From Pseudoxanthomonas wuyuanensis (GTDB lineage: Bacteria > Pseudomonadota > Gammaproteobacteria > Xanthomonadales > Xanthomonadaceae): a stretch of DNA of 64,000 nucleotides. The notes under the pieces are model-generated. The model did not search any database, was not told the origin of the DNA, and saw only the letters and a list, made by a program, of their open reading frames with translations. This document shows positions 26,479 to 48,058 of this stretch, one piece after another; positions within the stretch are counted from its first letter, which is position 1, and every line of letters starts with the position of its first letter. The stretch spans positions 620,001-684,000 of the forward strand of contig NZ_OCND01000001.1 of the NCBI RefSeq assembly GCF_900215535.1. The letters are read 5' to 3'. Both the position numbers and the translations under genes were made by a program.

Positions 26479-26503
26479 GCAAGTCGGGCTATGCCCGACT
26501 TGC
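26479..26503 (+). terminator. Perfect 11-bp hairpin after dnaK
   Basis: GCAAGTCGGGC and its complement flank a TAT loop. It lacks a following T-run, so it may slow or protect the transcript end and need not stop transcription. It lies between the dnaK stop and the strong AAGGAGGG site of the inserted gene. Confidence 0.45.
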
Positions 26504-26518: not shown

Positions 26519-26878
26519 ATGCGTCCACACCATGATTTACGGGTATGGCAGGAAGCCATGGAACTGGTCGCCGACGTTTATGCGGCTTCCAGGACTTTTC
26601 CTGCTGACGAACGTTTTGGATTGAGCCGCCAGAGTCGCCGGGCGGCGGTCAGCGTTCCCTCGAACATCGCGGAAGGCGCAGCCCGGGGTAGTCGCAAGGA
26701 GTTCATACAGTTTTTGATGATTGCCCGAGGTTCGCTTTCCGAACTGGATACTCAGCTGCGGATCGCTAAAAATCTGGAGTTTGCAGCGAATATCGATTCT
26801 CTACTTTCGGCTACGGAACGATTGCAGGCGGCGCTTGGGGCGCTGGTCGAATCGCAACGCGATCGATTGGCGAAATAG
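26519..26878 (+). CDS. Four-helix-bundle protein (23S rRNA intervening-sequence protein family), copy 1
   Basis: A 119-residue protein of the TIGR02436/S23 family. The hallmarks are HDLRVWQEAMELVADVY at the N terminus, RRAAVSVPSNIAEGAARGS in helix 2, and FLMIARGSLSELDTQLRIAKNL in helix 3. Relatives are encoded in 23S rRNA intervening sequences and in the accessory Avd protein of diversity-generating retroelements, but the free-standing ones have no known role. It has an excellent AAGGAGGG site. It splits dnaK from dnaJ, and its AT-richer stretches (for example TTTTTGATGATT) differ from its neighbours, suggesting acquisition. A second copy is at 34467. Confidence 0.9.
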   Translation: MRPHHDLRVWQEAMELVADVYAASRTFPADERFGLSRQSRRAAVSVPSNIAEGAARGSRKEFIQFLMIARGSLSELDTQLRIAKNLEFAANIDSLLSATERLQAALGALVESQRDRLAK

Positions 26879-33076: not shown

Positions 33077-33315
33077 GATTGTCCCCCACGCAGGTCTGCC
33101 GTGCGCCTGCCCCCGTTGCATGGGATACCAGAAACCCGGCAACGGCACAATCCAGGCCGCGTCAAAGCGGGGCGCCCGTTTTCTTTTGCGGCTTTCCCCA
33201 GTACAATTCTCGCTCGCCTGTTACCCATCGCCCCGGACCGGAGAAATACCGCGTTCGCGGTTTCTTGCAGCCGCAAGTCAGTGGAACAGGGTTCCTCCAC
33301 CCCAAGGCGAGCCCC

Positions 33316-34470
33316 GTGACTCAACCCGCAATTCTCGTACTCGAAGACGGCACCGTGTTCGAGGGCGAATCCGTAGGCGCAAGCGGCCTGTCGGTCGGCG
33401 AAGTGGTGTTCAACACCGCCATGACCGGCTATCAGGAAATCCTGACCGACCCGTCCTACGCCCGTCAGCTGGTAACGCTGACCTATCCCCATATCGGCAA
33501 CACCGGTTGCACCGACCAAGATGACGAAGCCGGCCAGGTCTGGTGCGCCGGCCTGATCGTACGCGATGTGCCGCGCCGCCCCAGCAGCTGGCGCAGCCAG
33601 ACGCCGTTGCCCGAGTGGCTGATCGCCCGCGGCATCGTCGCCATCGCCGGCATCGACACCCGCAAGCTGACCCGGCTGCTGCGCGAACGCGGCGCCCAGA
33701 ACGGTGCGCTGATGGCGGGCGAAGTCAACGTCGAGCAGGCGCTGGAAGCCGCGCGCAAGTTCCCCGGTCTGAAGGGCATGGACCTGGCCAAGGTGGTGTC
33801 CACCACCAAGGCTTACCCATGGCGCGATGGTCAGCTGGATCTGGACAGCGGCGCATTCGTGGCGGCAGAGCCCAAGTTCAAGGTCGTCGCCTACGACTAC
33901 GGGGTCAAGCACAACATCCTGCGCATGCTGGCCGAGCGCGGCTGCGAAATCACCGTGGTGCCGGCGCAGACTCCGGCCGCCGAGGTCCTGGCGCTGAATC
34001 CGCATGGCGTATTCCTGTCCAACGGTCCCGGCGATCCGGAGCCCTGCGACTACGCGATTGAGGCCATCCGCGAGTTCATCGCCAGGAAAATCCCCACCTT
34101 CGGCATCTGCCTGGGCCATCAGTTGCTGGCCCTTGCCGCCGGGGCGAAGACGGTGAAGATGGGCCACGGCCACCACGGCGCCAATCACCCGGTGCAGGAT
34201 CTCGACAGCGGGCGGGTCATGATCACCTCGCAGAACCATGGTTTTGCGGTCGATGAAACCAGCCTGCCGGCGAATGTCCGTGTAATCCACCGCTCGCTGT
34301 TCGACGGCACCAACCAGGGCATCGAGCTGACCGACGCACCGGCCTTCTCGTTCCAGGGCCACCCGGAAGCTTCGCCAGGTCCGCACGATGTGGCGCCGTT
34401 GTTCGATAGGTTCCTCGCATCCATGCGGGACCGGGGACCGGGGACCGGGGACCGGGGAAAGGTCCCTTGA
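33316..34470 (+). CDS. carA: Carbamoyl phosphate synthase small subunit
   Basis: The glutaminase subunit that releases ammonia for CarB in arginine and pyrimidine synthesis. The 384 residues include the N-terminal half ([23 protein letters not shown]) and a class I GATase with catalytic Cys in [14 protein letters not shown] and His/Glu in GHPEASPG. The GTG start at 33316 fits the family length. The last residues, [15 protein letters not shown], are encoded by a 7-bp repeat array, so the native C terminus appears to have been replaced. A small hairpin (33248-33261) lies in the leader. The stop overlaps the TTG of the inserted gene. Confidence 0.95.
34427..34458. repeat. Left GGGACCG array of the carAB cassette
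   Basis: Four perfect copies of GGGACCG plus a partial GGGA, inside the 3' end of carA. The array is the reverse complement of the one at 34837-34868. Confidence 0.9.
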
Positions 34471-34876
34471 ACCCATCGCATTTCCGCGAACTGGAGGTCT
34501 GGCGCTTGGCCATCGATCTCGCCAAGGCGGTCTATGTCATGACGTCGGAGTTCCCAAGGGAAGAACGCTATGGTTTGAGTGCGCAGTTGCAGCGCGCCGC
34601 CGTTTCGATCCCCTCGAACATCGCCGAAGGCAACGCCCGGGCCTCCACCCGCGACTATGCGCGTTTCGTTTCGATGGCCAGCGGTTCGGTTGCCGAGCTG
34701 CAAACTCAGTTGACGCTGGCTACGGAGCTCTCATTGGCTGATGGGGACAGGATGATTCCCCTGATGGAAACCGCGGAGCGGGTCAGCAAGATGCTGCACA
34801 AGCTGCATCGTTCACTCATTCAACGACTGGAATCTACCGGGTCCCCGGTCCCCGGTCCCCGGTCCCGGAGCTACTG

Positions 34877-34877
<1 letters not shown>
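34467..34877 (+). CDS. Four-helix-bundle protein (intervening-sequence protein family), copy 2
   Basis: A 136-residue TIGR02436-type protein: [38 protein letters not shown] and [19 protein letters not shown] align with the copy at 26519. It starts at a TTG overlapping the carA stop (TTGA) and its own TGA overlaps the carB ATG (TGATG), so it sits in full translational coupling. Its last residues ([12 protein letters not shown]) are encoded by the right-hand repeat array and are not part of the fold. This arrangement points to insertion of a gene plus flanking inverted repeats between carA and carB. Function unknown. Confidence 0.9.
34837..34868. repeat. Right GTCCCCG array of the carAB cassette
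   Basis: Three GTCCCCG units and a terminal GTCCCGG form the inverted counterpart of 34427-34458. They end 9 bases before the carB ATG and include the carB Shine-Dalgarno-like CGGAG at the edge. Confidence 0.9.
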
Positions 34878-38115
<3,238 letters not shown>

Positions 38116-38119
<4 letters not shown>

Positions 38120-47856: not shown

Positions 47857-48058
47857 GAGCGAGAAACGAGTGGAGAGGAGTGAGGAACGAGAAGCGAGAA
47901 ACGAGTGGAGAGGAGTGAGAAACGAGTAAAGGCGGTACCTCTTCACTCCTCACTTCTCACTCCTCACTCCTCACTCCTCATTTCTCACTCCTCATTTCTC
48001 ACTCCTCATTTCTCACTCCTCATTTCTCACTCCTCACTCCTCACCCCCCTCTCACTCG
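47857..48058. repeat. Inverted tandem-repeat array between prfB and lysS
   Basis: A purine-rich left arm (47857-47926; GAGCGAGAAACGAG, GTGGAGAGGAGTGAG units) faces a pyrimidine-rich right arm (47941-48058) of complementary sense. The right arm contains four perfect tandem copies of TTTCTCACTCCTCA (47981-48036) flanked by CTCACTC variants. Only 14 bases (TAAAGGCGGTACCT) separate the arms, so the array could form a long hairpin. No gene lies inside. There are no unique spacers, so it is not a CRISPR. Confidence 0.9.

Follow-up and report, generated by a model that had tools for sequence, protein, structure and literature searches.

Between carA and carB of Pseudoxanthomonas wuyuanensis lies a gene of the intervening-sequence protein (IVP, or IVP/S23) family, enclosed by two tandem arrays of the heptamer GGGACCG in opposite orientation. 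We describe this cassette, found in a stretch of 64,000 nucleotides ("the window": contig NZ_OCND01000001.1, positions 620,001 to 684,000, forward strand), together with the flanks of 217 IVP loci. Inverted matching arms surround most of these loci, usually with a period of 7 nt and the G-rich arm first, and dispersed gene-less arrays in a genome tend to carry the heptamer, or word, that frames its own IVP gene. We would give an even chance to the cassette belonging to a class of two-part mobile elements resembling the repetitive extragenic palindromic (REP) doublets forming hairpins (REPINs) and their REP-associated tyrosine transposases (RAYTs), with a ring of IVP protomers reading the array.

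The carA-carB cassette

The cassette and its neighbours are arranged as follows.

33313..34470, + strand: carA (PF00988 and PF00117; start codon picked by eye), last codons from the 5' array
34427..34458, + strand: 5' arm, GGGACCG x4.6, G-rich strand on +
34467..34877, + strand: IVP/S23 four-helix-bundle gene, 136 codons, TTG start (PF05635, TIGR02436)
34837..34867, - strand: inverted GGGACCG array forming the 3' arm; overlaps the final codons of the IVP gene
34877..38119, + strand: carB, its start overlapping the IVP stop; same protein in 38 of 38 genus genomes

The gene is a member of the IVP/S23 family, as a first-pass annotation of this DNA had claimed: its only Pfam match is PF05635 (E = 8.7e-36; 122.8 bits against a curated cut-off of 33.8), and the TIGR02436 profile scores 113.8 bits against a cut-off of 24. 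The same annotation saw it bracketed by two inverted arrays of 32 bp, a length that holds for the left one, while the reverse-complement array 3' of the gene is perfect across 27 bp (34840-34866, x3.9). As arms, the two span 34426-34456 and 34837-34867, each 31 nt and 97% complementary. In an RNA fold prediction they form a stem whose loop is the gene (z = -6.38, with 0 of 100 shuffles equally stable), and no Rfam family matched between 34300 and 35000. Doubled GGGACCG, with at most one mismatch, has 6 matches in the window, all within the two arrays of the cassette, as compared to a mean of 0.08 in shuffled windows, none of which (0/100) got to 6.

The junctions with both neighbours are as tight as previously read. 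The carA stop TGA (34468-34470) overlaps the TTG start of the IVP gene as TTGA (34467-34470), and the IVP stop TGA (34875-34877) overlaps the carB ATG at 34877 as TGATG. The translated tails of both upstream reading frames lie in the arrays, which encode the last 14 residues of carA and the last 12 of the IVP.

The predicted structure of the IVP (predicted local distance difference test score 93) matches XCC0516 (2gsc), BT_0352 (2rld) and then Avd, the Avd matches (8ub7 and 4dwl chains; probability 1.00, template modelling score by query 0.58-0.70) including Avd in the diversity-generating retroelement ribonucleoprotein 8ub7. XCC0516 is a homopentameric torus (PMC4990558). Twelve positions are invariant in both IVP alignments (9 and 40 sequences): W12, P30, E33, Q40, R43, S47, E54, G55, R58, G73, S74 and E77.

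Inverted period-7 arms at IVP loci

PF05635 was matched in 64 of 149 family genomes, from which 86 loci were retrieved and 82 placed by tblastn. Of 299 phylum genomes 52 had a PF05635 match, and the sample from phylum genomes and plasmids (initially 14 of the 29 plasmid records) added 43 loci. The genus supplied another 17, and 80 came from named relatives, being the best 80 of 538 and leaning toward the dnaK-dnaJ query. Removal of duplicates, unplaced loci and short flanks gave 217 distinct PF05635 loci; left out were L081, L083, L084 and L086 (not placed by tblastn), L055 (runaway frame), L355 (motif not found) and three loci with short flanks. Control flanks (n = 203) were taken 600 bp further out.

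Inverted matching flanks (score at least 12) were found at 176 of the 217 loci as compared to 4 of 203 controls, so arrays are present around most other family members tested, and at a score of at least 15 the counts were 149 and 0. By sample, the numbers were 71/81 for the family, 30/42 for phylum and plasmids, 16/16 for the genus and 59/78 for the named relatives. A period-7 score of at least 11 on one or both sides was reached by 151/217 loci and 9/203 controls. Among the 434 single flanks, 236 reached this score with period 7 and 179 with its double, 14, and each other period between 4 and 20 did so in at most 11; flanks of L283, L318 and L274 have a period of 8 or 9.

The period is shared and the word is free: counting only flanks with a period-7 score of at least 11, the 5' arms hold 58 different words. 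Array length, counted on the same flanks, is stereotyped, with a median of 4.29 units and 141 of 236 arrays at 3.5-4.5 units. G exceeds C in 169 of the 176 5' arms, the reverse being true in 5 and the two being equal in 2. Titles of inverted-flank records name Acidobacteriota, Syntrophomonadaceae, Acetothermia, Lentisphaerae, Planctomycetales, Capnocytophaga, Uhrbacteria (period 9), Thermodesulfovibrionia, Campylobacteraceae, Ignavibacteriae, Nitrospira and Hydrogenedens, and such flanks occur on Anabaena and Nostoc plasmids too; the sorting of these records into phyla is partly our assumption.

The two arms of one locus change together. We compared the fit of each left arm with its own right arm and with the right arms of orthologous loci at the same site, using 10000 permutations. 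The mean fit was 19.4 (own) versus 13.3 (orthologous) at accB-accC (36 loci; 0 permutations reached it), 18.2 versus 12.5 at carA-carB (13 loci; 1 permutation) and 16.3 versus 9.8 at nrdB-nrdA (13 loci; 0 permutations).

Dispersed gene-less arrays and the IVP word

Within 400 kb of the window's genome, nine of ten period-7 arrays have words related to those of its own IVPs (the tenth is GTAAAGG), and some are opposed pairs without a gene. The same length of G139, which has no PF05635 match, holds 2 period-7 arrays.

Searching the 149 genomes for doubled words, we found a co-occurrence of IVP word and dispersed arrays. Doubled AAATCTG occurs in a single genome, G034, whose IVP has this word (28 matches, 19 of them outside the IVP). 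Doubled GTGAATC has 383, 60 and 56 matches in the three GTGAATC-IVP genomes and 7, 1 and 1 in three others. For doubled GGGACCG the counts are 100 and 17 where the IVP has that word (two genomes); four other genomes reach 18, 13, 7 and 5, and five more have a single match each. The link is looser for GGGACTC, found doubled in 30/149 genomes. Counting genomes with at least 10 doubled-word matches outside IVP loci, the contrast between IVP-word genomes and all others was 3/3 versus 0/146 for GTGAATC (Fisher p = 2e-6), 1/1 versus 0/148 for AAATCTG (p = 0.007), 2/2 versus 2/147 for GGGACCG (p = 5e-4) and 4/5 versus 11/144 for GGGACTC (p = 3e-4). A forward prediction with GGGAATG, an IVP word of G068, gave 59 matches in G068, 2 and 3 in its congeners G095 and G121, and 0 in G142 (71% complete), but 50 in the congener G025.

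Gene-less pairs share the polarity of the cassettes: of 22 neighbouring array pairs, 20 are G-rich then C-rich and none is reversed, with spacers of 18-203 nt. Spacers longer than 20 nt showed no similarity to the window's cassette at E 0.01 that would betray IVP remnants, and the only spacer similarity found is a 28-nt terminator-like hairpin common to L335 and L337.

Filled and empty sites

Filled and empty junctions are seen in an operon common to nine Nostoc plasmids. Its first junction holds an IVP cassette with CAGGAGT-type arms in three of the nine, the gene being interrupted in one, a 3-bp gap in five and another small open reading frame (ORF) in one. The next junction holds a different IVP with GGGAAAA-type arms in one plasmid, a TAATG stop/start overlap in four and a gap of 2-4 bp in four. 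For two of the plasmids the sites are reciprocal: over the 292 bp separating the junctions they are 99.7% identical, and each is empty where the other is filled. Where the first junction is filled, the stop changes from TAG to TAA, whose final A falls on the end of the array, and the following ATG stays in place; the ends of the IVP insertions are ambiguous by a few bases. The junction before the first carries CAGGAGT-type arrays between its genes in 5/9 plasmids. To this extent the earlier suggestion of a mobile cassette entering coupled operons without breaking translation is borne out.

The interrupted gene shows a gene-less element as an insertion.

L356:1314-1495: 182-bp gene-less hairpin interrupting the pNPM1 IVP gene; its arms share the words of the IVP cassette

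Comparison with intact copies revealed no clear target duplication or loss at this insert, with a possible single shared G. We accordingly rejected an insertion sequence or miniature inverted-repeat transposable element with target duplications, there being no direct target repeat at this site. Similar DNA is found in 36 plasmid records, and five further copies (L364-L368) have the same left end and a right end beside GATAA.

In Nostoc edaphicum an IVP lies antisense between nrdB and nrdA, a site also used in the family, and the Calothrix counterpart is a 40-bp gap. Genome G396 has two identical stretches of 4325 bp, each with an IVP gene and period-7 inverted arms, and in one of them (L219) an Rfam scan gave a full-length large-subunit rRNA match spanning the insert. 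Because this period-7-armed IVP insert lies within the rRNA match, the 23S rRNA intervening sequence (IVS) of L219 is the same kind of object as the IVP cassettes.

The carA-carB cassette itself is patchy within the genus. We read carA-carB loci for 30 of 38 genus genomes, and in 22 of these both genes lay inside the retrieved flank. Three of the 22 have the IVP (the window's genome, G150 with 76% and G178 with 65% identity), three have a clean junction (-8, 0 and +1 bp) without it, six have a gap of 92-127 bp and ten have 448-760 bp without an IVP; any PF05635 match is present in 20 of the 38 genomes. The site is therefore not fixed, and the comparison that the first-pass annotation had proposed does not show every relative carrying gene and arrays. 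In the family tree, which includes one misread sequence (L002, a dnaK-dnaJ gene), 12 of the 13 carA-carB IVPs form one clade and the thirteenth (L080) is placed elsewhere. Descent with losses is possible because of this clade, and the distribution is compatible both with it and with repeated arrival, so that the carA-carB copy itself may or may not have arrived by a recent move. Vertical descent as the whole story was set aside on the patchy carA-carB junctions and the filled and empty Nostoc junctions.

Other IVP loci

The 82 placed family loci fall into 18 upstream flank groups. Thirty-six share one site, which reads as accB-accC, 13 lie at carA-carB, 13 at nrdB-nrdA and 3 at a fourth site, glyA-nrdR (the first and last named from neighbouring ORFs, not by profile). 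The remainder are two pairs and single loci; L055, which would be a 37th at the largest site, shares only its upstream group.

The window's genome has three PF05635 genes: at carA-carB, at dnaK-dnaJ and on contig C30. Two more features of the window are relevant here.

26519..26878, + strand: second IVP gene (TIGR02436, 117 bits), between dnaK and dnaJ as named from ORF reading
47857..48044, strand not assigned: gene-less opposed heptamer arrays, AGCGAGAAACGAGTGG type / CTCCTCATTTCTCA type (compare L003)

The expectation that other IVP genes of this genome would also have flanking arrays was met by the C30 copy, which has GAGTGAGAAATGAGG-type inverted arrays, but not by the dnaK-dnaJ copy, around which no heptamer arrays were found. 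Just upstream of the latter is a perfect 10-bp hairpin (26480-26502), and this copy could be a variant type or a cassette whose arms have decayed. The C30 copy groups by its flank with L072, next to which is an ORF that reads as NrdB, and the arrays at 47857..48044 are of the word type that brackets the nrdB-nrdA IVP of this genome. At L072 the N-terminus of the NrdB-like ORF is encoded by a heptamer array (PLTPHSSPLTPHSSPLTPHSS), so that arrays can extend the protein of a neighbour. Also in the window's genome, a match to the small RNA Xoo5 (RF02242; L140:11606-11729) lies ~1.1 kb from a gene-less GGGACCG pair. On cyanobacterial plasmids, the IVP genes of L210, L212 and L215 are found within operons of clustered regularly interspaced short palindromic repeats (CRISPR), between cas6 and cas4 and between cas10 and a cmr3-family gene.

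Relation to known systems

The 23S rRNA IVS of Coxiella and Leptospira has an S23p ORF between complementary arms (a 28-bp stem in Coxiella), and has been called selfish, with mobility suspected (PMC4990558). It resembles the carA-carB cassette in holding an IVP/S23 ORF between stem-forming arms, and differs in that the carA-carB copy lies outside 23S rRNA; the passages on the IVS in that source make no mention of heptamer arrays, operon sites or gene-less copies.

In REPIN/RAYT systems, as described in PMC3116915, a RAYT gene sits beside inverted repeats, and dispersed gene-less doublets form hairpins. The likeness lies in the dispersed inverted doublets of the IVP gene's own repeat class in the same genome. 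However, the RAYT is a Y1 tyrosine transposase whereas the IVP is a four-helix bundle in which no transposase domain was found, and the REP is a short palindrome whereas IVP arms are tandem heptamers.

Heptamer repeats as such have been described before. Xanthomonas and Nostoc carry GGGAATC heptameric G-quadruplex repeats, and two Xanthomonas genomes have 70 and 75 inverted pairs that converge and share the polarity of the IVP arms; that study reports no general association with mobile elements, and the terms "four helix", "intervening" and "S23" do not occur in its main text (PMC4692102). Heptamer arrays are also among the contents of PMC6344855, and TAACTGA repeats of Beggiatoaceae are the subject of PMC4679880, whose main text is without S23 or four helix. 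We found no link between IVP/S23 and heptamer arrays in the titles and abstracts listed by searches of open-licence literature.

Kinship with Avd, also raised in the first-pass annotation, stands at the level of the common fold. The Avd profile NF033474 gives the window's IVP 21.5 bits against a cut-off of 80, and the reverse transcriptase family PF00078, found in 1 of 10 genomes searched, has no match in the window's genome. Membership in Avd and diversity-generating retroelements was rejected on these two grounds.

Discussion

In the mechanism that we propose, the full element would be an IVP gene framed by two arrays in opposite orientation, each of some four heptamers, able to pair as a stem of ~30 bp, and the gene-less form would be the same array pair around a short spacer. 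Word and IVP would travel together, gene-less copies of the IVP's word spreading in the same genome as REPINs do beside a RAYT. Elements would land mostly between genes, in some cases exactly where the stop and start of two operon genes meet; the stop codon could then come from the end of the array, with the following start preserved. An IVP ring might read ~4-5 heptamers, one protomer per 7 nt, on a single-stranded hairpin, which would give specificity by deciding which hairpins spread; we propose this because the constant period, free word, fixed polarity and stereotyped unit number fit evenly spaced identical sites. Copying may proceed through the single-stranded hairpin with an enzyme of the host or of another element: a single-strand mechanism is suggested by the Nostoc hairpin, which made no clear target duplication and ends next to GATAA, and a borrowed Y1 enzyme might be involved. 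In its widest form, the proposal is of an element class in more than 10 phyla, in which the IVP/S23 ring protein, without a known catalytic motif, recognises tandem heptamers at one protomer per 7 nt, each lineage having its own word, and drives or licenses their spread. We advance this form tentatively, with rather less confidence than the assignment of the cassette to a REPIN/RAYT-like class.

Several observations weigh against this proposal. To our knowledge, the IVP contains no known catalytic motif, and the conserved ends of the 182-bp element beside GATAA fit a sequence-specific transposase of another kind. IVPs within one site are mostly inherited vertically, as judged from the family tree, and the arm-fit permutations and the Fisher tests on words ignore kinship. 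Matching arms were missing by score at 41 of the 217 loci, including the dnaK-dnaJ copy of the window. As to the words, G004 has 98 doubled GGGACTC matches and no PF05635 match, G007 and G027 carry GGGACCG arrays (18 and 13 matches) without an IVP of that word, and the GGGAATG prediction held for two of three IVP-bearing congeners and failed in G025 (50 matches).

The strongest competitor, which we nevertheless regard as unlikely, is that the heptamer hairpins are non-autonomous and moved in trans by a Y1/HUH transposase of the IS200/IS605 or RAYT type, the IVP being cargo. The 182-bp insert without target duplication speaks for it, as do the six copies ending beside GATAA, a pattern typical of IS200/IS605. 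The first-pass statement that no transposase is present holds for the cassette but not for the rest of the genome, which has four matches to the Y1 transposase family PF01797, three over the cut-off, and REPINs are described as working in this way (PMC3116915). However, PF01797 was not found in G034, G039 and G095 despite their populations of IVP-matched arrays, and a cargo role leaves unexplained why the word follows the IVP and why one gene family lies so regularly inside the arms. Less probable again, and improbable overall, is that the IVP tunes operons through arrays in their mRNA, the arrays being selected regulatory sites and not mobile. The comparison here is TRAP, an RNA-binding ring. 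Fixed period and unit number, the G-rich arm coming first, the location at operon junctions and the Avd-like fold would all suit a ring of this kind, but a gene-less element interrupts an IVP gene, sites are patchy among close relatives, and the IVP at nrdB-nrdA is antisense to the operon.

We give very little credence to two further explanations. If the cassette were an IVS at the RNA level only, its arms a putative RNase III site at which the IVP segment is cut from mRNA or rRNA, the predicted pairing of the carA-carB arms and the position of L219 within a 23S rRNA match would follow, but the dispersed gene-less arrays, the period of 7 and the matching of words would be left unexplained. It is just as hard to credit an old gene that never moved and around which the arrays grew by slippage and gene conversion. 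Inheritance within sites is largely vertical and array length varies among related loci, both in keeping with such a history; against it stand the empty and filled sites, including the two reciprocal Nostoc junctions, the number of upstream flank groups in the family, the presence of one word at many dispersed places of a genome, the recurrence of period 7 across phyla and the insertion into an IVP gene.

The inverted frame with varying words around most sampled IVP members, in many bacterial phyla, suggests a type of mobile element that has been missed so far, and the link to one protein family makes the question of the heptamer arrays testable. If our proposal of a ring-read mobile element is correct, the 23S rRNA IVS and the G-quadruplex heptamers of Xanthomonas would be traces of this element class, possibly along with the heptamer repeats of cyanobacteria and Beggiatoaceae, and the preference of prokaryotic intergenic tandem repeats for a period of 7 would be explained. 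It would also describe a mobile element that lands on stop/start junctions with both neighbours still translatable, assign a role to the IVP/S23 family, and show a 23S rRNA intervening sequence to be just one of many sites of insertion.
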